Shown piece after piece: positions 40,010-52,583 of a DNA stretch of 64,000 nt (the stretch's first letter is position 1; each line of letters opens with the position of its first letter). A program made the translations under genes and the position numbers. A model generated the notes under the pieces. That model was given only the letters and a program-made list of their open reading frames with translations. It was not told where the DNA came from and did no database searches. The stretch spans positions 124,001-188,000 of the forward strand of contig MEPB01000049.1 in NCBI GenBank assembly GCA_001769385.1. The letters run 5' to 3'. Source of the DNA: Bacteroidetes bacterium RIFCSPLOWO2_12_FULL_35_15 (GTDB lineage Bacteria > Bacteroidota > Bacteroidia > 2-12-FULL-35-15).

Positions 40010-40972
40010 CTAAAACAGATAGCCGTATTTCTGATGCAGAAATTTATCGTTTACTCCGGAGTGTTTACTTTTGAAAATATTTGAGCTATATACGATCATT
40101 ATTTCATGGGAACCGCTACTATAATTCCTGATCTTTCCAATTAACAGATCATACGAATAACTTACCTGGAAATCATTTAGAAATGATGCCCCAACATGAA
40201 TAGCAACTGCATCGTGTAAACGCAAGGAAAGGCCTGCAAAAATTTTCTCTTTATAATGTAAAAGTAATGTGTAATTTAAGTTGAATGGTGCACCAGCTAC
40301 ATAATTTCCGTATAGCGAATTTTCAAAAACATAATCCCTGTTTTCAGAAAAATTATAGCCCAAAGTAAAATTTAAATGATTTACATAACGGATGACCCCC
40401 TTTTTTGTAGTATCTGTTTTATAAAAAATAGCTTCAGACTGTAGTCCATGCAAAGCACTAATGCCAACATGAAAACGGTCATTGTACATATAAATTCCTG
40501 CAGAAGCATCTGGAACCCAGGTACTATTTGTTATGTATTGATTGATAGATGGATCTTGCGAGTTATGAAGTGAAATTTTATCTCCTATCAAGGTATATTT
40601 TGTAAAATTTCCTGCTAATCCGGCTGATAGTTCAACATCCGGAAAACGAAAATGAAATGCATAACTCGCTCCCAAATTCATTTGTTTTGCCGGCCCAACT
40701 TTGTCTTGTAATAAATAAATTCCGGCACCCATTTTACCTTTCATAAATCTACTGTGTAAACTTACACATTCTGTACGTGGTGCGTCATCATATCCGAGCC
40801 ATTGCATACGATAATTGATTCGGGCGTCCACAAGGCGTTTTGTCCCTGTAACGCCCGGGTTAAGCATGAAATTATTATTTGTAAATTGAGAATAATAAGG
40901 CATCTGTTGTGCAAATACTACAATAGAATTAAGTAGAAGGAAACAAGAAAGTATGTTTATTTTAATTCGCAT
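40010..40972 (-). CDS. PorP/SprF family type IX secretion outer-membrane protein
   Basis: 320 residues: signal peptide ending VVFAQ, then QMPYYSQFTNNNFMLNPGVTGTKRLVDARINYRMQW, the PorP/SprF hallmark, and barrel strands to the end. Same family as the protein at 12007-13041 but clearly diverged. It follows the type B cargo at 41054-42124 on the same strand by 81 bp, repeating the cargo-then-partner order seen at 8.1-13 kb. Confidence 0.92.
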   Translation of the reverse strand: MRIKINILSCFLLLNSIVVFAQQMPYYSQFTNNNFMLNPGVTGTKRLVDARINYRMQWLGYDDAPRTECVSLHSRFMKGKMGAGIYLLQDKVGPAKQMNLGASYAFHFRFPDVELSAGLAGNFTKYTLIGDKISLHNSQDPSINQYITNSTWVPDASAGIYMYNDRFHVGISALHGLQSEAIFYKTDTTKKGVIRYVNHLNFTLGYNFSENRDYVFENSLYGNYVAGAPFNLNYTLLLHYKEKIFAGLSLRLHDAVAIHVGASFLNDFQVSYSYDLLIGKIRNYSSGSHEIMIVYSSNIFKSKHSGVNDKFLHQKYGYLF

Positions 40973-41053
40973 GTAATCCTTAATTTAGTACTTATATTTA
41001 GTATTTAAACAGACTCTCCTGGTATTTAGTATTAGAGTTTGTTTTGTTTTTTG

Positions 41054-42124
41054 CTACCTGACAATGCTCACTGTTCCATGATGTTTTTTGCTCCCATCAC
41101 CCAGATCCATGATATAAAAATAGGTTGCTGATGGAAGTTCTTCTCCAAATGCTTTTCCTTCCCAATTATTTATATATCCACTTGCTTTGAAAACTAATTT
41201 GCCATATCGATTGAATACTTCCAATTTATTATTAGGGTACTTGTAAATATTTCCAATGTACCAGGTATCGTTATTCCCATCACCGTTTGGTGTGAATGTA
41301 TTGTAAAAAACAACTGTATTTGTTGGTATAATAAATACTGTTACTTCATCAAAAGCAGGACAGGCGTTACTTTCATCAGTTCCATAAACATAATAAGTTG
41401 TTGTTACAATTGGCTCTGCATCCGGATTTGCTGTAAAGTAATAAGTAAGTGTGTTTTGTGGTGTCCAGATATAATTGAAAGCACCTGTTGCATGTAAAAT
41501 TGCTGTTTCCCCCTCGTTTATTGTGGTATCATTGCCGGCACTAATTTGTGGTGTGGGAATTATGGTAACAGTTGCGAAGCTTGTTTTTGACGGACAACCG
41601 GCAATTGTTGCTGTTAATGTATAAGTAGTGGTGTTAGTTGGTGTAGCAATAGGATTTGCTAAGGTAGAATCATTTAATTCGGCTCCCGGTGACCAGGAGT
41701 AATTCACTCCGGCCCATGAAACATCAAATTCTCCACCAATTCTTGCTGATTCAGCAACACAAATACTGGTATCTTTTCCTGCACTTGCATAGTATATTTT
41801 ACTCATATTCACTACAACCACATCAGTGTTTACTGCACCTGTATCATCCGTTACTGTTAAGGTGTAGGAGGTAGTTATTTGAGGTGAAGCTGTTGGATTT
41901 GGTCCGTTGGATAAATTTAATCCTGCGGTTGGTGACCATAAGTAGGAATAGGGGGCAAGACCTCCGGTTGCTGAAGGTGTACCACCAATAGTATCTTTGC
42001 CTCCCGGACAAATTGTATTATCGGGTCCCGCGTGAGCTGAAAGCTGGGCATGTGCCGAATTAACAACAAATAGTGAAAACAGGATTAAAAAAAAATAATT
42101 GATTCTTAAAATTATTCTCATCAT
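41054..42124 (-). CDS. Ig-like secreted protein with T9SS type B sorting domain
   Basis: 356 residues. Signal peptide ends NSAHAQ. Three Ig-like units start AGPDNTICPGGKDTIGG, AGKDTSICVAESARIGG and AGNDTTINEGETAILHA, each with SPTAGL/SPGAEL/TPQNTL-type loops. The last ~85 residues (VVFYNTFTPNGDGNNDTW, LEVFNRYGKLVF, GWEGKAFG-like, KKHHGTVSIVR) are a type B sorting domain. It is probably surface-attached through the PorP/SprF protein next door. Two adjacent ATG codons give alternative starts one residue apart. Confidence 0.88.
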   Translation of the reverse strand: MMRIILRINYFFLILFSLFVVNSAHAQLSAHAGPDNTICPGGKDTIGGTPSATGGLAPYSYLWSPTAGLNLSNGPNPTASPQITTSYTLTVTDDTGAVNTDVVVVNMSKIYYASAGKDTSICVAESARIGGEFDVSWAGVNYSWSPGAELNDSTLANPIATPTNTTTYTLTATIAGCPSKTSFATVTIIPTPQISAGNDTTINEGETAILHATGAFNYIWTPQNTLTYYFTANPDAEPIVTTTYYVYGTDESNACPAFDEVTVFIIPTNTVVFYNTFTPNGDGNNDTWYIGNIYKYPNNKLEVFNRYGKLVFKASGYINNWEGKAFGEELPSATYFYIMDLGDGSKKHHGTVSIVR

Positions 42125-42241: not shown

Positions 42242-43696
42242 TTAATAAAATTCATAGGCTCCAAGATCAGGAAATGTTCCATTTGGGCGATTCTTGTCAT
42301 TTAGGTCCTTTGGTACACTAATTCCGGGATCACCGGTATCAATGGCAAAAGATGTGCTTATTAATTGATAATCGTTTACACTATAGTCTTGGAAACCGGG
42401 ATTGTTGTTTTTATAAACTGTACCATAATGAAGAGAACTATTCGTGTTCAAGTTTGTCTTGATGATACAATGATTAAATTTAAAAGAAAATAAACCCGGA
42501 GCATAATTTGTGGAATCTAATCCGAGTTCGTCAGCAATATCACCATATATGATACAATTCCCGAAATAGCAACTATCTAGTGGTCTTATGTATGTTGTAC
42601 TTCCACTGGAATAATAATTATTAAGAGCAAGAATTGGAGTTGCCCTCTGACTGCCGGTCCAGAAATTTGCAAACGTACAGTGCTCGAACTTATAACTTCC
42701 ACCAATAGTAAGTGCGGCAACATATTGCCCGCAATTTGCAAATACACAGTTATTACTCCAGATGCGTGTTCCTTGTCCGTATAGTGCAGCCACCTGCATG
42801 TTTTTAACAATAGTGTTGGTGAGTTTTAATGTTGCTGCTGTGAGTGAACTAACAGTATCTGATTGAATTCCAATAGTACCATTTTTAATAATTGCCCAGT
42901 CGATCACATTGTTTTTGCTTAATGCCGAAAGCCATATTCCGCGCCATTGTCCGGGAAGCTCTTTGTAATCCGGTTCTAATCTGTCGCCTTGGAAAGTAAT
43001 TTTGTTGTTTAATGAACCTTGTGAAATTAATGTTCCATCTTTATAAACAAATAAACAGGCATAATTATGAAAATACATATGAACACCAGCATCAATGGTT
43101 AATATACAAGCCGAATCAACCACTGCATAACCAAATACCAGATATGGAAGGTCATTAATTAATGTAGTATCAAAACCACTTCGTCCAATGATGCTATATG
43201 CCGGAAATCCATTGGTAGGAAAATGATCCGGTTTTATCAAATGTACATTTTGTCCAATTGCTGTAAGCTTCACATCTTGAATATTTCCATTGATTTCAAA
43301 AATGATGGAATCCTTAATCAATAAAGGAGCACTTTGCGAAGGATTAACATGAACCTGAACAAAAACGTATAAACTATCTCCTCCTAAAATTTCTATGTCT
43401 TGTAAAACAGGTGCCGAAGCAGTGGTGGAGATTCCGTCAATATTAAGTTTATAAGCAGAAGAACCTCCTCCGGCCAGAAAAGCTTTTGAAATATTCATGG
43501 TTTGTTTATACCGATTATGAATCGTAAATACTTTAGTTGTGGAACCGGCATACTTAAAAACGGTATCAAATAATACTGAATCAGTAGAAAATTCAAGCTT
43601 TGCACTGGAATCAGTTAATAATTCATCTTTCTTGCAAGAGGATAAAATCAGAAACGAAAAAAGGATTACAAAAAATAGTCTTTTGAATAATTTCAT
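42242..43696 (-). CDS. Right-handed beta-helix lipoprotein
   Basis: 484 residues from ATG 43696, chosen because it gives the lipoprotein signal MKLFKRLFFVILFSFLILSSC; the frame extends 44 codons further but would run into the divergent gene's 5' end. Residues ~30-170 are an Ig-like domain (KVFTIHNRYKQTMNISKAFLAGGGSSAYKL). Residues ~190-480 look like a parallel beta-helix (IDWAIIKNGTIGIQSD, LKLTNTIVKNMQVAAL, KFEHCTFANFWTG) ending FPDLGAYEFY, a common close of choice-of-anchor/right-handed-helix proteins. Likely at the outer surface and carbohydrate-related. No catalytic residues identified. Confidence 0.82.
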   Translation of the reverse strand: MKLFKRLFFVILFSFLILSSCKKDELLTDSSAKLEFSTDSVLFDTVFKYAGSTTKVFTIHNRYKQTMNISKAFLAGGGSSAYKLNIDGISTTASAPVLQDIEILGGDSLYVFVQVHVNPSQSAPLLIKDSIIFEINGNIQDVKLTAIGQNVHLIKPDHFPTNGFPAYSIIGRSGFDTTLINDLPYLVFGYAVVDSACILTIDAGVHMYFHNYACLFVYKDGTLISQGSLNNKITFQGDRLEPDYKELPGQWRGIWLSALSKNNVIDWAIIKNGTIGIQSDTVSSLTAATLKLTNTIVKNMQVAALYGQGTRIWSNNCVFANCGQYVAALTIGGSYKFEHCTFANFWTGSQRATPILALNNYYSSGSTTYIRPLDSCYFGNCIIYGDIADELGLDSTNYAPGLFSFKFNHCIIKTNLNTNSSLHYGTVYKNNNPGFQDYSVNDYQLISTSFAIDTGDPGISVPKDLNDKNRPNGTFPDLGAYEFY

Positions 43697-43816
43697 TTTG
43701 CAAATATAGAGTTTGGCGTTTTGTAAACGATAATTAAATAGAAATATTATAACAAACCATTTAAATTGAAAATCGCATAATTTTATGGATTTTACTATAT
43801 TTGAAATAAAAAAATC

Positions 43817-45415
43817 ATGAGACAACACTACATTTATTTCTTTTTAGTTTTTTTGGGATCAGTTTTTCAAAAAAACAGTTTTGCCCAAAGCACTTACGTC
43901 TCTTCAAATTATGCAGTTTCCGGGGATACTCTTTATTTAACAAAAACTCAGGTTAGTGTAACTAATTTTGATACAAGTGGTGCCGGCCTTACACTTGATT
44001 ATTCAGCTTTATCAGGCGTGTCACAAAGACGGCTGATCTTTCGGGCACCCAATCAAACCGGATTTTCAATTGCACAATGGCCCTATATCTTTAATGCGAG
44101 TAATGTAAATCTATCTTCTACGGACGATAAAACATTTTCCACCGCAAATTTGCAATACACAGATCCGAATGATTATTATTTAAAGAATACATCCCTGCTT
44201 GAGCAAAAAGCTTCAAGCGCAAAAATAACCGTAGGTTCAACATCCGTAAATGTAAAAAATGTGTATGCCACTTCTGATGTATTATTGAAATTTCCACTTA
44301 ACTATGGAAATGTTGATTCATCAGAAGCATCCTTCACTACCAATATTCCCAATCTTTATTACAGAAGTACAACCATCAAAAGGGTAAATCGGATAACCGG
44401 GTGGGGGAGTGTTACTACTCCGTATGGTACTTTTTCAAATTGCTTGAAATTGGAATCAACAGTCAGAGAGATTGATACAGTTTCTATTGATACTGTGGGT
44501 TTCCCTCAAGACACACTTTATTATCGTGAGATAAAATGGTTTGACTCCTCAAAAAAATATGAAATTTTATATGTGAAACAAAATAAAATTGGTAACATGT
44601 ATGTTACTCAAACTGTGGAATACCTCGATAATAAACAGTTTTTTCAACCCATTGCACTTTTTGCGTATTTGCCTTTGGCTCCAATAGTTAATGATACAGT
44701 TACTTTTCAAAATTTAAGTACCAACAGCTATTCTTATTCCTGGGATTTTGATGATCCGGCAAGCGGGGCAAACAATACTTCTAACGTTACTAATCCTTTG
44801 CATATATTTAATACCCCCGGAGTCTTTCAAGTGATGCTCATCGCAACTAATGGCCCCTTGTTGGATACAGTTATTATTCCCGTAAGCGTTGCCACTATAC
44901 CGAGTGCTTCTTTTACTTATTCACCTTCGACAATTTTTGAAGGGGATACTGTTTTTTATACCAATACTTCTATAAATGCTGCTGTGTATAAATGGAATTT
45001 TGGAGACCCTTTGAGCGGTATTAAAGATACTTCTTTTTTAGCTGATCCAAAGCATGTATATGCGGTTGCAGGGACCTATTCTGTTGTGTTGATTGCATAC
45101 AGCAGTGCGGGTGCTGATACAGCCTACGCCTCCATACTTGTTGATCCTGCAATAGTAAGTTCTTTAACTGAGAATGATCCGGTGAATAACCTGACTCTGT
45201 TTCCAAATCCTTCTAATGGCGAAGTTTGTATTCAGGCAACAACTGATGGAGTTTATTCAATTATCAATGAATTGGGCCAAACGATCCGATCCTTTACATT
45301 AAATGTCGGCAATAATTATACTTTGAAAATTGAAAATTTAAGTAATGGTATTTACTTTATTGTTGGTTTTAGTAACAATAAAATGTCCAGGCAAAAAATG
45401 GTAATTGAGAAATAA
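43817..45415 (+). CDS. PKD-domain secreted protein with T9SS type A sorting domain
   Basis: 532 residues. Signal peptide ends KNSFAQ. Residues ~25-290 are an uncharacterised beta-rich domain. Two PKD domains follow at ~295-370 (YSYSWDFDDPASG, HIFNTPGVFQVMLIA) and ~380-455 (YKWNFGDPLSG, HVYAVAGTYSVVLIA). A type A T9SS domain ends the protein (LTLFPNPSNGEVCIQ, LSNGIYFIVGFSNNKMSRQKMVIEK). A good terminator lies 25 bp downstream. Probably a secreted or LPS-anchored surface protein. Confidence 0.88.
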   Translation: MRQHYIYFFLVFLGSVFQKNSFAQSTYVSSNYAVSGDTLYLTKTQVSVTNFDTSGAGLTLDYSALSGVSQRRLIFRAPNQTGFSIAQWPYIFNASNVNLSSTDDKTFSTANLQYTDPNDYYLKNTSLLEQKASSAKITVGSTSVNVKNVYATSDVLLKFPLNYGNVDSSEASFTTNIPNLYYRSTTIKRVNRITGWGSVTTPYGTFSNCLKLESTVREIDTVSIDTVGFPQDTLYYREIKWFDSSKKYEILYVKQNKIGNMYVTQTVEYLDNKQFFQPIALFAYLPLAPIVNDTVTFQNLSTNSYSYSWDFDDPASGANNTSNVTNPLHIFNTPGVFQVMLIATNGPLLDTVIIPVSVATIPSASFTYSPSTIFEGDTVFYTNTSINAAVYKWNFGDPLSGIKDTSFLADPKHVYAVAGTYSVVLIAYSSAGADTAYASILVDPAIVSSLTENDPVNNLTLFPNPSNGEVCIQATTDGVYSIINELGQTIRSFTLNVGNNYTLKIENLSNGIYFIVGFSNNKMSRQKMVIEK

Positions 45416-45710: not shown

Positions 45711-48700
45711 ATGAGTAAGAATTTAAGGATCATCTACATTTTATTTCTGCTTTTGGGCTTGGAAACTCATTTGGCTTTTGCCCAAACTTCCTTTGCTTCT
45801 GAAGACGATATGAAAAAGCAGGCTCAGAAACTATTTTCTGACGAGGAGTTTGAACAAGCTTTCCCATTGTATTCGCAACTTGTTAGTCTTTACCCAAAAG
45901 ATCCCAATTATAACTATCGGCTTGGCGTTTGTATGCTTTTTGCCAGTGATGATAAGGAGCGCCCTATCCCGTTTTTAGAATTTGCCTCACATAGCAAAGA
46001 CGTTGATAAGGAAGCTTTTTATTATTTAGGAAAAGCATATCATCTGAATTATCGTTTTGATGAAGCGATAGCTTCTTATTTCGCTTATAAAAAAGTTGCA
46101 TCTAATTCAAATGCACAGCGATTAATGGTGGATCACCAGATCGAAATGTGTAAAAATGGTAAACAATTGTTGCGCAACCTTACTGATCTGATTGTGATTG
46201 ATAAAAAAGAAATGAGTCGTGAAGATTTTTATCGCTCGTATGATATTTCAGGTTTAGGAGGAAAATTACTTTCAAAACCTGATGAAAAAGAGTTTAAAAC
46301 GCCACTCGACAAAAAGAAAAAGGATAATTCCATCATCTATCTGGCATCAAATAATAATCAAATTTATTTTGCAAGTTATGGTACTGATGGTAAACATGGG
46401 AAAGATATTTTCCTGGTTAAAAAATTACCAAACGGAGAATGGAGTCAGGGCCAAACACTGGGAAGCCCTATAAATACAGAGTATGATGAAGATTATCCGT
46501 TTCTTCATCCCAATGGAAGAGTATTGTATTTCTGTTCAAAAGGCCATAACTCAATGGGTGGATATGATATTTTTAAATCCACTTTTAATACAGAAACAAA
46601 CAACTGGAATCCTCCTGTAAACCTTGACTTTCCTATTAATACTCCTGATGATGATATTTTATATGTAACAGATGGAAATGAAAAAGAAGCCTATTTTTCT
46701 TCTGCTCGATCAAGTAAAACAGGAAGTACAGCCGTTTATCATATAAATGTAGAACGGAAACCAATTGATTTTGCCATCATTAAAGGAACTGTTGTAAAAA
46801 ACCGGGACAATCAAAAGCTCGATGCGAAAATTACAGTTAAGGATCTGGCCGACAATTCCATTCTTGGGATATATAATTCAAGCCCCGAAACCGGAATTTA
46901 TGTTATTAATTTACCCAGTAGTGGAAGATTTTTATATACGGTAGAATCAGAAGGATTTGCTACTCAATCTGAAATGATAACGCTACCCATGCAGCATGAA
47001 TTCAAACCCATGAAGCAAGAAATTAGTTATGATCCGACTACAGATAAATTAATAGTGAAAAATTCATTTGATCAGGAAATAGATGATTCTAACTACCTGT
47101 TGGCGATGAAGTATATCAAAGAAAAATCAAAAATGGATGTTTCTCCGGTAGAATCTGTTACTACCGATGCTTCGAAAGAAATTGATACAGTTTCTGCTCA
47201 GCTTGCTTCAAATCAAAATAAAAATACTACAACAACTACCGGTTTAACAAATGATGACATTGTTAAAATCGCTTATAACGATGCAAAGGATGTTGAAACG
47301 GAAGCCAAAGATCTGCGGGAACAAGCAGATATCGCTCTGAATTTTGCAAATCAAAAAAATGAACAGGCACAAAACAAAACAAAAGAAGCTTCTGGCTTTA
47401 TGGAGGAAGCAGCCAAAACAGATGATAACATAAAAAAACAAGCGATAACCGAAAAGGCTGCAGATGCTTCTAAAGAAGCAGAATTATTAAATCAGGAAAC
47501 GGTAAGTGCTTTTAATTTGGCTAAAAAATTAGACATCGCTGCAAAGGCGAAACAGGAAGAAGCTGATCTATCCCTGAAATATTCTCAGGATCTGGAGGCT
47601 GCCGTGAAATCAAAAAATGCAACAGATGCCTTGGCTAGACTAGAGGCTCAGGAAAAAAAACTGGAAGAGTTGAGTCAGAAAAATTCAGCAACTTCTTCGA
47701 TCTCTAACAGCTTAAAAATTGATCTTGATAACAAGCAACGTGAATTGGATAAAGCAATTCAAACATCTTCTGACCTGAAGACAGAAATTGCCGACAATGA
47801 AACGATCATCACTAATTTAGGAGATGATCTTGATAATACAAAAAATGAAGATCTGCAAAAAGGATTAAGCAATCAGATCGATGAGTTAAATAAAGATATT
47901 GCTGAAAAGCAAAAACAAATTGATCAGAATGAATTGGTAGTTGCAAAATTGCAAAAAGAGCTGGCCGGAATTAATAATGAAAATTTATTAGTAAATTCTG
48001 TTATCGATCAATCCAAGACAGGAACAAGCGAGACAGCGGCAGCAAATGTGGCTTCAATAGATAAAAATAAATTAGAGGAACAGGTTAATAATATTAAGAA
48101 TTCATCAAGCAGCACCAACTCAATTGCAACAACAACTTCTAACAATCAACAACCAACAGCCAATTATGATAAATACACAACTGATCTGGCTGCTGCCGAA
48201 AAATTAACAGATGAAATTGAACGTGAAAAAACAAAATCTGATGTTTTGAAAAAATGGTCGGAGGCAATTGATTCGGATGTTGCAAAACAAAAACAAAATT
48301 TAGTTTCGGCTACCTCTGAAGAAAAAACTAGCATTAACCAAAAAATTGCCGATGCAGAAAAGTTGTCTGCTGAAAAACAAACTCAGTCTGATGTAAGTTT
48401 GGCAAAAGTGGAAACACTTAAACAAAAACAAGTTATTGCTGCTAACACAACGAATAACACAACAACGAATGTAACTACAACATCCAACAATCAGCAACAG
48501 GAAACAAATCCGGCATTTACCAAATATGAAACTAATTTAGCGGATGCTGAAAAAATAACAGATGCAACAGAACGCGAAAAAGCAAAAGCTGATCTGTATC
48601 TTATGTGGTCACAAGCATTAGATGCTGATATTGCAAAACAAAAACAAAATCTGAATGCTACCACTGATCCGGAACAAAAAGAAATTATAGCAAAAAGAAT

Positions 48701-51449
48701 TGAGGAGGAAGAAAAATTGTCGGGTGAAAAACAAACACAGTCTGATGTAAGTTTGGCTAAGTTGGAGTCCTTAAAACAACAAAAGGCTATTGCAACCAAC
48801 AACCAACAACCAACAACCAACGAACAGCCTTTGGTTATTCCCGATTATAAAAAATATGAAGACAACTTAGCAGATGCCGAAAAAATTTCAGATGAATCGG
48901 AACGCGAAAAAACAAAAGCAGATGTTTTTAAAAAATGGTCAGAAGCAATTGAAATGGATGTTGCAAAACAAAAACAAAGTCTGGAAACTACAACTGATAC
49001 AGAGCAAAAAGCATTGTTGGCAAAAAATATTTCGGATGCGGAACAATTATATAAAGAGAAACAAACACAATCTGATAATAGTTTAGCAAAGGTTGAAACC
49101 TTAAAACAACAAAATGAAACTGTAACAACTAATGTTACACCGGTAACAAACAATGAGCAACCAATAACAACTCCTGATTATAAAGTTTATTCCGATAATT
49201 TTGCAGAAGCAGAAAAAATCAGCGATGAAACAGAACGCGAAAAAACAAAAGCAGATGTTTTGAAAAAATGGTCAGAAGCAATTGATGCAGATGTTGCAAA
49301 ACAAAAACAGGAATTTATTGCTACCACTGATCCGGAAAAGAAAAAATTACTTTCAGAAACAATATCAGCCGGAAAAGAACTTTCTGAAGAAAAACAACTT
49401 TTAGCAAATGAATCTTTGGCGAAAGTAGAATCAATCAAACAACCGCTTGTTGTTCATACAAATACAGTTATTCCTCCCGATACTTCTGTTACACAAAATA
49501 CAACAGAAACGAATGCCGGAACAACTGTAAAATCAGTAAATGCAACAACAAACGAGAGTCGGACACCTTATAGCGCAAGCGGTGTAGCTGATCAAATTGA
49601 AAAGTCGAATATAATTAATAAAGAGGCCGATGATCTGATTGCACGGTCTGTAGAGTTAAAATCACAGGCAGTGGAGCAAACCAATGAAGAAACAAAAAAC
49701 TCAATGTATGCTCAATCTGAAGATCTGATAAAACAGTCGAAAGATAAAAAAATGGAAGCTGCCCAGCTTATAGCTTCTGCTAATAAAGCACAGTTTTTTG
49801 AAAATCAGGAACTGCTGAATAAATATGTTATCATGTTTCAAAAAAATGAAGCGGACGAAATTTCTATCGCAGAAATGATGAGTGATGAATCGAAAATATT
49901 TTTTGAGAAGGGACAGAAATTCCGTACACAAGCCGATTCATCTAATTTATATTATGAAAAAGAAGCAGCAACAGATGAAGCATACAAAAACGAATTGATA
50001 GCTTTGGATAAACAAAGAAGAGGAATTGATATTTACAAAAAATATGATACAACAGGTGCAGCTAATTTAGCTGTAGCTAGTACTTCAAATAAAAATCCTG
50101 ATAATGTAAACACGACAGAACCAACAACTAACACAACTCAACCAATAACTAACACAACACAACCTGAAACAAATACAACACAACCAACTAACACAATACA
50201 GCCTGTAACTAATACTATACAACCTTCTGTAATTTCATTGGAAGAGAATGAAAAATTTGAACGGAAATCTGTTCCTGTTTATTCAGCTAACAAGCCAATT
50301 CCGGTAAATGAAAAATTGCCTGAAGGATTGATTTTTAAAGTTCAGATCGGTGCATTCAAAAATCCGATACCGCAAGATCTGTTTCAGGGAATGAGTCCAA
50401 TAACAGGAGAAACTACCCCACAAGGATTTATACGATATACTGCAGGTTTATTTATTAAGTTTTCTACAGCAGATAAAGTGAAAAAAGAGATCAGAGATCT
50501 GGGATATAAAGATGCGTTTGTTGTGGCATTTTTAAATGGAAAACGTATCTCCATGAATGAAGCATTGACAATGGCCGGTATCAATCCTGCAGAAATTGCA
50601 CAAGCGAATAATAACCAAACATCAACTACAACACAAACCCCTGTTGCAACAACTAACAACCAACAACCGATTGCAAATAACCAACAAACAGCAATTGCCC
50701 ATACCGAAAACATTGCAGCTGTAAATGGTTTATTTTATACGGTTCAGATAGGAGTGTTTTCTCAACAGGTTTCCTCAGAAAAGCTTTATAATATTCAACC
50801 ATTGTATATCGAAACAGCACCGAATGGAAATTTACGTTACAACACGGGTATTTATAACAATGTTCAGCGTGCAGCGGAAGCAAAAGATATAATTGTTGGA
50901 AAAGGATTAAAAGACGCATATGTTACTGCTTATTACCAAGGGAAACGAATTTCTTTGACAGAGGCAAAACAACTTGAAGCACAAGGAAGCTCTGTTTTTT
51001 CAACTGTTTCAACTATCAATGAGATGCCAAATTTTAATACTGTTGCAAATCAAACACCTGCTGTAAATACGCATACGGAACAACCAATCACCAATAACCA
51101 GCAGCCAAATTCAAATGAAAACCAGCAATTGAATAAGATAATTGATCAAAATAACACACAAACGATTGAATCTGGTGTTATCTATAAAGTGCAGATAGGT
51201 GCATTTTCAAATGAGGTTCCTTTGCAAGTTGCCAATAAGTTTTTGAGTATTGCATCAGAAGGAATAAAAAATTATAAAGACGAAAAAGGGTTGACGATAT
51301 ACACGATTGGTAGTTTCAAAACATATGATGAAGCAGCAGCCTCAAAAGTAAAAGTTGCCGGAGCAGGTATTCCGGATGCATTTATTGTTGCCTATAACAA
51401 TGGAAAAAAAATCAGCCTGGATGAAGCAAAAACTTTATTAAACAAATGA
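45711..51449 (+). CDS. Giant PorE-like envelope protein: TPR, PD40 propeller, coiled-coil repeats, three SPOR-type domains
   Basis: 1912 residues. Signal peptide 1-25 (HLAFAQ). TPR-like helices ~30-150. PD40/WD40-like propeller ~205-335 (NQIYFASYGTDGKHGKDIFLV, EDYPFLHPNGRVLYFCSKG, GGYDIFKS). Carboxypeptidase-regulatory-like domain ~350-430. Coiled coil ~520-770. Four homologous ~110-residue helical units begin at about 818, 935, 1044 and 1155 (core AEKxxDExEREKxKxDVxKKWSEAI). Three SPOR-like domains begin at about 1540, 1673 and 1823 (KVQIGAF, TVQIGVF, KVQIGAF), each closing with AFVVAFLNGKRIS-type strands. The first three modules match PorE, the T9SS protein that tethers the system to peptidoglycan with an OmpA domain; here SPOR domains would do that. 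Its stop overlaps the clpS start (ATGA). Confidence 0.85.
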   Translation: MSKNLRIIYILFLLLGLETHLAFAQTSFASEDDMKKQAQKLFSDEEFEQAFPLYSQLVSLYPKDPNYNYRLGVCMLFASDDKERPIPFLEFASHSKDVDKEAFYYLGKAYHLNYRFDEAIASYFAYKKVASNSNAQRLMVDHQIEMCKNGKQLLRNLTDLIVIDKKEMSREDFYRSYDISGLGGKLLSKPDEKEFKTPLDKKKKDNSIIYLASNNNQIYFASYGTDGKHGKDIFLVKKLPNGEWSQGQTLGSPINTEYDEDYPFLHPNGRVLYFCSKGHNSMGGYDIFKSTFNTETNNWNPPVNLDFPINTPDDDILYVTDGNEKEAYFSSARSSKTGSTAVYHINVERKPIDFAIIKGTVVKNRDNQKLDAKITVKDLADNSILGIYNSSPETGIYVINLPSSGRFLYTVESEGFATQSEMITLPMQHEFKPMKQEISYDPTTDKLIVKNSFDQEIDDSNYLLAMKYIKEKSKMDVSPVESVTTDASKEIDTVSAQLASNQNKNTTTTTGLTNDDIVKIAYNDAKDVETEAKDLREQADIALNFANQKNEQAQNKTKEASGFMEEAAKTDDNIKKQAITEKAADASKEAELLNQETVSAFNLAKKLDIAAKAKQEEADLSLKYSQDLEAAVKSKNATDALARLEAQEKKLEELSQKNSATSSISNSLKIDLDNKQRELDKAIQTSSDLKTEIADNETIITNLGDDLDNTKNEDLQKGLSNQIDELNKDIAEKQKQIDQNELVVAKLQKELAGINNENLLVNSVIDQSKTGTSETAAANVASIDKNKLEEQVNNIKNSSSSTNSIATTTSNNQQPTANYDKYTTDLAAAEKLTDEIEREKTKSDVLKKWSEAIDSDVAKQKQNLVSATSEEKTSINQKIADAEKLSAEKQTQSDVSLAKVETLKQKQVIAANTTNNTTTNVTTTSNNQQQETNPAFTKYETNLADAEKITDATEREKAKADLYLMWSQALDADIAKQKQNLNATTDPEQKEIIAKRIEEEEKLSGEKQTQSDVSLAKLESLKQQKAIATNNQQPTTNEQPLVIPDYKKYEDNLADAEKISDESEREKTKADVFKKWSEAIEMDVAKQKQSLETTTDTEQKALLAKNISDAEQLYKEKQTQSDNSLAKVETLKQQNETVTTNVTPVTNNEQPITTPDYKVYSDNFAEAEKISDETEREKTKADVLKKWSEAIDADVAKQKQEFIATTDPEKKKLLSETISAGKELSEEKQLLANESLAKVESIKQPLVVHTNTVIPPDTSVTQNTTETNAGTTVKSVNATTNESRTPYSASGVADQIEKSNIINKEADDLIARSVELKSQAVEQTNEETKNSMYAQSEDLIKQSKDKKMEAAQLIASANKAQFFENQELLNKYVIMFQKNEADEISIAEMMSDESKIFFEKGQKFRTQADSSNLYYEKEAATDEAYKNELIALDKQRRGIDIYKKYDTTGAANLAVASTSNKNPDNVNTTEPTTNTTQPITNTTQPETNTTQPTNTIQPVTNTIQPSVISLEENEKFERKSVPVYSANKPIPVNEKLPEGLIFKVQIGAFKNPIPQDLFQGMSPITGETTPQGFIRYTAGLFIKFSTADKVKKEIRDLGYKDAFVVAFLNGKRISMNEALTMAGINPAEIAQANNNQTSTTTQTPVATTNNQQPIANNQQTAIAHTENIAAVNGLFYTVQIGVFSQQVSSEKLYNIQPLYIETAPNGNLRYNTGIYNNVQRAAEAKDIIVGKGLKDAYVTAYYQGKRISLTEAKQLEAQGSSVFSTVSTINEMPNFNTVANQTPAVNTHTEQPITNNQQPNSNENQQLNKIIDQNNTQTIESGVIYKVQIGAFSNEVPLQVANKFLSIASEGIKNYKDEKGLTIYTIGSFKTYDEAAASKVKVAGAGIPDAFIVAYNNGKKISLDEAKTLLNK
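48117..51140 (+). repeat. Recurrent AAC/CAA-rich minisatellite-like linkers
   Basis: Short CAACAACCAAC-type runs recur between the domains of the giant protein, for example at 48117-48160, 48791-48826, 50120-50220, 50648-50690 and 51080-51130. They encode Asn/Gln/Thr/Pro linkers (NNQQPTTN, TTQPITNTTQ). The runs can slip, so linker length may vary between strains. Confidence 0.7.
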
Positions 51450-51754
51450 TGAACACCCAAAATTTTGATAAGAAACATCACGACCCGGATGTTGAATCGG
51501 ATGTACTTTTAGCACCGGATGAAGTGGAAGTGTCTGATAAGCAAATAATACTTTATAATGATGATTTTAATACGTTCGATTTTGTAATTGAATCATTGAT
51601 AAAGGTTTGTAAACAGGATCCAATACAGGCTGAACAATGTACTTTTCTGGTTCATTACAAAGGGAAATGTTCTGTTAAAAAAGGTTCCTATGAAGTGTTG
51701 GAACCCTATTGTACTGCTTTATTAGAGCGAGGTCTGACGGCTGAGATAGAATAA
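51446..51754 (+). CDS. clpS: ATP-dependent Clp protease adaptor ClpS
   Basis: 102 residues, normal length. Core QIILYNDDFNTFDFVIESLIKVCKQDPIQAEQCTFLVHYKGKCSVKKGSYEVLEPYCTALLERGLTAEIE carries the ClpS signature NDDxxTxxxV. It delivers N-degron substrates to ClpA/C-ClpP in the cytoplasm. The ATG at 51446 overlaps the TGA of the giant SPOR protein (ATGATGA), pointing to translational coupling; a second ATG at 51449 is an alternative. Confidence 0.93.
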   Translation: MMNTQNFDKKHHDPDVESDVLLAPDEVEVSDKQIILYNDDFNTFDFVIESLIKVCKQDPIQAEQCTFLVHYKGKCSVKKGSYEVLEPYCTALLERGLTAEIE

Positions 51755-51779: not shown

Positions 51780-52583
51780 ATGAGAAGACGACACTATACT
51801 TTAGGACTAATCCTAACCTTGCTTTTTGTTGCATGTGAAAAAGTTCCAATCACCGGCCGTAAGCAAATGAACTTAATTTCAGAATCAGAATTGATTGGAA
51901 TGAGTTTAACAAATTATAAAAATTTTCTTATAAAAACGCCTGCCGTTGCAGTCGCTGATGCAAATGCACAGCTGGTAAAAAAGGTAGGTAACAATATCTC
52001 GAAAGCTGTTACTGCATTTATGGCACAAAAGGGATTGTCGAGCAGATTGACAGGTTATCAATGGGAATTTAATCTGGTAAAGGAAAATACGGTAAATGCA
52101 TGGTGCATGCCAGGTGGAAAAGTGGTGGTATATTCAGGCTTGTTAGCTGTTACGCAAACAGAATCTGCATTAGCTTGTGTAATGGGACATGAAATTGCAC
52201 ATGCTGTTGCAAGGCATGGTAATGAAAGAATGAGTCAATCACTCCTTGTGCAGGTTGGTGGAACAGCTTTACAAGTAGCACTTTCACAAAAACCTCAATT
52301 AACTCAGGATATCTTTTTACAATCATTTGGAGTAACTTCTCAATTGGGAATGTTAAAATATTCCCGGACCCATGAAAGCGAAGCCGATAAGATGGGTTTA
52401 GTTTTTATGGCTATGGCAGGTTATGATCCGAATGATGCTATTGCTTTTTGGGAACGTATGGCAAAAACAGGTGGAGGAAATCAAACTTTAGAATTGTTGA
52501 ATACACATCCAAGCGATGAGAAACGTATTGCAGATATTAAAAAGTTTTTACCGGAAGCATTGAAATATTATAAAAAGAAATAA
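51780..52583 (+). CDS. M48 family zinc metallopeptidase lipoprotein
   Basis: 267 residues with a lipoprotein signal (LTLLFVACEKVP), then PITGRKQMNLISESE, the usual N-terminus of YcaL/LoiP-type M48 proteases. Zinc motif HEIAH at residues 137-141 and the third ligand E201 in HESEADKMG; VNAWCMPGGKVVVYSGLL is also diagnostic. A periplasmic outer-membrane quality-control protease is likely. It lies 25 bp after clpS on the same strand and may be cotranscribed. Confidence 0.93.
   Translation: MRRRHYTLGLILTLLFVACEKVPITGRKQMNLISESELIGMSLTNYKNFLIKTPAVAVADANAQLVKKVGNNISKAVTAFMAQKGLSSRLTGYQWEFNLVKENTVNAWCMPGGKVVVYSGLLAVTQTESALACVMGHEIAHAVARHGNERMSQSLLVQVGGTALQVALSQKPQLTQDIFLQSFGVTSQLGMLKYSRTHESEADKMGLVFMAMAGYDPNDAIAFWERMAKTGGGNQTLELLNTHPSDEKRIADIKKFLPEALKYYKKK

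Follow-up and report, generated by a model that had tools for sequence, protein, structure and literature searches.

PorE-type anchors grip the cell wall through an OmpA domain. SPOR domains are, to our knowledge, known mostly from division proteins of other phyla, and in other bacteria they grip glycan strands from which the peptides have been removed. The PorE of Porphyromonas gingivalis (PG1058) comprises TPR, PD40 and carboxypeptidase-regulatory-like (CRD) modules, and its propeller is described as five-bladed (PMC5053529); PorE binds both peptidoglycan and PorP, and PorP in turn binds type B cargo (PMC9143113). As for SPOR domains, Q270 of RlpA touches glycan while R302, R309 and R311 form a basic patch, and the homologous residues Q251 and R285 of FtsN are required for septal localization (PMC6895207). 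Here we describe a protein that carries the module order of PorE at its N-terminus and three SPOR-like domains at its C-terminus, encoded in a 64,000-nucleotide stretch of a Bacteroidota genome (referred to as the window, whose coordinates are used throughout).

The gene (45711-51449, plus strand, as are all features within it) is an intact ORF that runs from ATG to stop without internal stop codons and encodes 1912 residues, in the order TPR, three PD40 blades, CRD, helical region and three SPOR-like domains. Three minus-strand ORFs within it (48491-48820, 48845-49153 and 50384-50713) were judged to be shadows of coding or linker sequence and not genes. Residues 1-24 (45711-45782), which end in AFA-Q, form a predicted Sec (type I) signal peptide by eye and lack a lipobox; none of 79 members of the family has a lipobox at the expected place, the single lipobox-like motif found among them being misplaced. 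Pfam analysis of the whole protein returned PD40 at residues 250-288 (E 3e-7), SPOR at residues 1825-1893 (E 1e-4) and a weak TPR match. Neither Pfam on the whole protein nor NCBIfam on the C-terminus returned an OmpA domain, SPOR being found there instead, and self-comparison of the protein revealed four helical repeats of ~90 residues together with the three SPOR-like copies.

In an AlphaFold model of residues 22-1030, the TPR domain spans residues 31-156 (45801-46178) and resembles the CHIP TPR over model residues 6-138 with VIA Z-scores of 9.3-9.5. It is followed by a partial beta-propeller of three PD40 blades (residues ~186-349, 46266-46757), for which TolB is the best compact solved match in structure alignment of the model, with residues 186-349 aligning to about half of the TolB propeller (2w8b; Z 11.0, 130 residues, rmsd 2.9). 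A carboxypeptidase-regulatory/transthyretin-like beta-sandwich, the CRD, completes the N-terminal part (residues 351-456, 46761-47078; VIA Z 9.4-9.9 to the PepT2 ectodomain and transthyretin), such that Pfam, the model and structure alignment all give the order TPR, PD40, CRD that is found in PorE. The top Foldseek and VIA rows for this model, namely Tc-toxin shafts, dynein and cilia proteins, were rejected as chance long-helix matches with rmsd above 26 Å. The model contains strands for three blades and not for the five of PorE, so that of the PD40 propeller claimed in a preliminary description of this DNA, the PD40/TolB-like blades stand whereas the full propeller, with ~130 residues placed on TolB, does not. 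Moreover, the family HMM aligns best with the last three blades of the PorE encoded by the same genome, most strongly over PorE residues 282-406, leaving ~140 residues of the PorE propeller without a counterpart; because the propeller is partial, the surface that engages a partner in PorE may be missing.

The NCBIfam PorE model (NF052230) scores 94.8 bits against a cut-off of 600 and covers residues 212-376 only, and the CHU_0125 model scores 92 bits against a cut-off of 620, both matches falling within residues ~203-425. The resident PorE of this genome (G000:C50:3038-5023) is full-length and OmpA-bearing, although at about 541-543 bits it lies slightly below the 600 cut-off, and it is accompanied by ~30 further PD40 proteins, several of them with OmpA, and by 27 PorP homologues. 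Since the genome retains this PorE and its many PD40 paralogs, the SPOR protein is an added variant. By eye the resident PorE likewise lacks a lipobox, and the absence of this motif therefore does not discriminate the SPOR protein from it. Compared with P. gingivalis PorE and the PD40-OmpA paralogs, CHU_0125 included, the window protein shares TPR, PD40 and CRD modules, a putative wall-binding C-terminus and a predicted periplasmic location, but it has fewer blades than PorE, an additional helical part of ~930 residues, three SPOR domains in place of OmpA and no lipobox, scores far below the family cut-off and occurs besides PorE. It is a separate family and not a PorE ortholog, with common ancestry with PD40 proteins in the PD40 region. 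The view of it as PorE-like is thus sound with respect to module order and the lack of OmpA, but not the further view of it as a PorE whose OmpA anchor is replaced: a score of 95 bits against 600, the three blades and the coexistence of a full-length PorE all argue against replacement as an event in this organism.

Between the CRD and the SPOR domains lies a helical part of ~930 residues, counting disordered linkers (residues 514-1445). It opens with a conserved helical region (residues 514-800, 47250-48110) in which the AlphaFold model places helices of up to 61 residues, continues with repeats R1 (residues 818-906, 48162-48428), R2 (935-1024, 48513-48782), R3 (1045-1134, 48843-49112) and R4 (1156-1245, 49176-49445), and closes with a second bundle of four helices (residues 1292-1445, 49584-50045) modeled at a pLDDT of ~95. 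A repeat HMM detects between one and five copies of the ~90-residue repeat within the genus and none in some remoter relatives. The ~1100 residues of helical repeats initially proposed are helical as claimed but shorter, and are modeled as long-helix bundles as opposed to one extended coiled coil; a long, extendable tether is nonetheless plausible, fitting both the length and the linkers. As a separate observation, the DNA that encodes NNQQP-rich linkers (48793-48821 and 50655-50670) repeats a CAACCAACAACC-type motif in 7-base steps, and such repeats may aid variation in linker length.

The three SPOR-like domains occupy residues 1536-1623 (50316-50579), 1670-1757 (50718-50981) and 1819-1911 (51165-51443). 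By Pfam alone (PF05036), copy 3 of the window protein is above the cut-off of 21 at 26.2 bits and copies 1 and 2 are below it, copy 1 just under at 20.8. Because the copies from the window had themselves served as seeds for the family SPOR HMM, an independent Pfam check was made on each copy across family members, and it matched copy 1 in 27 of 27, copy 2 in 12 of 27 (weakly) and copy 3 in 26 of 27. The best solved structure for the profiles of copies 1 and 3 is the SPOR domain of CwlC (1x60; E 7.5e-4 and 1.5e-3, respectively), while a match of copy 2 to 7adk was discarded as consisting of two weak stretches only. A C-terminal AlphaFold model (residues 1285-1912; 35 family members in the alignment) shows a four-helix stretch and then three compact alpha/beta domains on disordered linkers, with a mean pLDDT of 78.7, ~80-95 within the domains, and a pTM of 0.34; pTM ranges from 0.34 to 0.45 across our models, which do not fix the placement of the modules relative to each other. 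All three domains are modeled with the RNP-like beta-alpha-beta-beta-alpha-beta order. Copy 3 was the only one aligned to solved SPOR domains, namely CwlC (Z 7.6), the RlpA-glycan complex 6i09 (Z 7.1) and DamX (Z 6.0), and the absence of copies 1 and 2 from the structure-alignment list is uninformative, since one domain fills that list.

We then considered the residues of the glycan surface, assigning equivalence to RlpA and FtsN by motif alignment and not by superposed coordinates. Among 63 sequences, the glutamine corresponding to RlpA Q270 and FtsN Q251 is invariant in copies 1 and 2 (Q1545 and Q1679) and present in 57 of 63 in copy 3 (Q1828), and the arginine corresponding to R309 and R285 is invariant in copy 1 (R1575), arginine or lysine in copy 2 (R1709) and lost in copy 3, where the position is mostly isoleucine, valine or leucine. 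With these residues kept in two copies and the arginine lost from the third, copies 1 and 2 look fit for binding denuded glycan and copy 3 appears altered. Pfam, the CwlC profile matches, the alignment of copy 3 and the retention of glycan-contact residues in copies 1 and 2 together uphold the assignment of three SPOR-fold domains made in the preliminary description. Like FtsN, DamX, DedD, RlpA and CwlC, the window protein has a C-terminal SPOR fold with, in copies 1 and 2, the glutamine and arginine of the glycan surface; unlike them, it has three SPOR domains in series with linkers, and scaffold modules replace the transmembrane or catalytic part.

This architecture is more than a chance arrangement, as it is kept across the family: of the 70 distinct complete relatives, 62 share the layout of the 1912-residue protein and are those which the family HMM, applied with duplicates removed, finds to have exactly three C-terminal SPOR-like domains. 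Complete relatives with the three-SPOR architecture end 0-3 residues after the last SPOR domain, and the distinct complete relatives are 1731-2361 aa long (median 2078). Strong family matches were obtained in 127 of 296 sampled genomes of the class (>40%), mostly as one strong-level gene per genome where PorP and PD40-OmpA genes are many, and full-length relatives were read both within the organism's own genus and across many further families of the class. Named genomes, when scanned, gave 369 relatives in total, the best 80 of which all come from MAGs labeled, as deposited, Bacteroidota, Bacteroidia, Flavobacteriales or similar. Two shorter relatives, at L083:3881-8617 (family f10, 1579 aa) and L084:3972-7520 (family f4, 1183 aa), have one degenerate SPOR-like tail each, and a search of these and the other relatives with fewer SPOR matches for an OmpA domain that might mark an intermediate found none. 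The accessible literature on SPOR with PD40, the type IX secretion system (T9SS) or Bacteroidota, which does not extend to most subscription papers, yielded no description of this architecture, and the family, found in many Bacteroidota, is apparently undescribed so far.

The conserved neighbors of the gene are clpS, an M48 metallopeptidase, plsY and a protein of ~1500 aa, and gene order gives no support to a T9SS linkage. clpS (51446-51754, plus strand) overlaps the stop codon of the SPOR gene and lies directly downstream of it in 40 distinct loci, and the M48 metallopeptidase gene (51780-52583, plus strand) is conserved as the next gene in 27. Upstream, in other families, stand plsY (27 loci) and the ~1500-aa protein (25 loci). 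The latter (for example L132:3037-7617, plus strand) is secreted and beta-rich, often directly precedes the SPOR gene, belongs to no Pfam or NCBIfam family and is present in 240 of the 296 class genomes, mostly in one copy; in the window's own genome it lies outside the window, 84 kb off (G000:C49:80847-85304). A gene for a PorP/SprF-family barrel beside one for a type B CTD (CHU_C) protein is found at 40010-42124 (minus strand), but we rejected a conserved PorP linkage, as no locus other than this one and that of the closest relative has the pair close to the SPOR gene. A beta-helix, choice-of-anchor Q protein (42242-43828, minus strand), encoded divergently on the upstream side of the SPOR gene, is conserved at 24 distinct loci within the genus.

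Taking matches as strong at thresholds that we chose ourselves (E 1e-20 for GldN and 1e-44 for the SPOR-protein family), strong GldN is found in 126 of 127 strong carriers of the SPOR protein versus 135 of 169 non-carriers (Fisher p 2e-8 with the 296 genomes treated as independent); read the other way, the SPOR protein is strong in 126 of the 261 strong-GldN genomes and in one of the remaining 35. The sole exception (G091) has genus-mates that carry GldN, making an assembly gap likely, and within family f20 four genomes are strong for both proteins and four are weak for both. These co-occurrences and the shared modules suggest a role connected with the T9SS, an association that phylogeny confounds, and the many T9SS-positive families that lack the SPOR protein indicate that it is not a core T9SS part.

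The reading that we favor, at a probability of about one half, is that the protein is a soluble periplasmic scaffold held to denuded glycan by the avidity of its triple SPOR array, with its N-terminus on a partner at the outer-membrane side. The glycan binding, location, partner and any T9SS link that we infer would fit together as follows. The protein would be exported by Sec in soluble form, and its TPR, three-blade PD40 and CRD modules would hold a partner that lies against the outer membrane's inner face, in the way thought for the modules of PorE; because PorP is bound by PorE and itself binds type B cargo (PMC9143113), PorP-like barrels are the foremost candidate partners. The SPOR array would grip glycan strands denuded of peptides by amidases. 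Copies 1 and 2 would bind via the classical Gln/Arg surface, copy 3 would bind less strongly or in another way, and the several weak sites together would provide avidity for wall undergoing splitting or remodeling. The helical and linker region would set the reach of the scaffold, its length tuned by repeat number.

A serious rival, if on balance an unlikely one, is that the protein serves division or outer-membrane constriction in the manner of Tol-Pal with CpoB, coupling membrane and wall at the septum via denuded glycan and taking no part in type IX secretion. All characterized SPOR proteins function in division or morphogenesis (PMC6895207), and the housekeeping nature of the conserved neighbors, the mostly single strong-level gene and the TolB match of the blades point the same way. 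TolB, Pal and CpoB likewise bring TolB-type blades and TPR into envelope proteins that join the outer membrane to the wall, but the window protein unites in a single chain roughly half a propeller and wall-binding domains of a different fold, and homology is seen in the blades alone, whose resemblance to TolB is common to every PD40 protein. Against a division role also stands the near-universal presence of strong GldN among carriers, which in family f20 are strong-GldN genomes exclusively. Furthermore, many T9SS-positive families do without the SPOR protein yet must divide, so that it cannot be central to division across the class.

Doubtful, in our estimate, is a reading in which the protein stands in PorE's place as a T9SS/PorP-type anchor dedicated to some of the type B cargo, tying secretion or surface-anchoring complexes to denuded wall. 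The module order, the binding of PorP by PorE (PMC9143113), the nearby PorP and type B CTD pair, the 27 PorP homologues and the co-occurrence with GldN are all consistent with it, but the PorP linkage is not conserved, a bona fide PorE coexists and the propeller is partial. We hold just as tentatively its broader form, a class-wide tether in which the triple SPOR array fastens PorE/PorP-type outer-membrane complexes to denuded (septal or remodeled) wall such that this part of type IX secretion or surface anchoring follows the cell cycle. Least probable is a structural spacer or ruler of periplasm width whose SPOR folds are generic modules that no longer bind denuded glycan, for while the lost arginine of copy 3, the degenerate tails of the two shorter relatives and the range of lengths accord with it, a mere spacer would not preserve the (nearly) invariant glutamine and arginine of copies 1 and 2.

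On the periplasmic scaffold reading, PorE-like modules joined to a SPOR array would tie Bacteroidota envelope scaffolds to the state of the wall, and the family offers a way to test whether the division cycle positions secretion or surface-anchoring complexes. A triple SPOR array also stands at the end of a second envelope protein encoded by this genome (L169:824-3037, plus strand; G000:C88:77323-79536). In this 738-aa protein, a PorG-like outer-membrane barrel (71 bits against a cut-off of 130) is joined through a TSP3 linker to three SPOR domains at the C-terminus, and the protein is conserved within the genus as well as in several other families. It resembles the window protein in bearing three C-terminal SPOR domains where OmpA is usual, but differs from it in length and in having a membrane barrel in place of the TPR-PD40-CRD scaffold. 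That two envelope proteins end in this way indicates that an exchange of OmpA for a SPOR array as wall anchor may have occurred more than once; if the tether reading is true, SPOR arrays would repeatedly replace OmpA domains in these bacteria. A further SPOR-bearing ORF lies just upstream of the barrel gene (L169:3-752). The same genome also encodes an Amidase_3 protein with a C-terminal SPOR domain (L170:1236-2618, plus strand), which would in principle be able to make denuded glycan and could supply it to the SPOR array of the scaffold.
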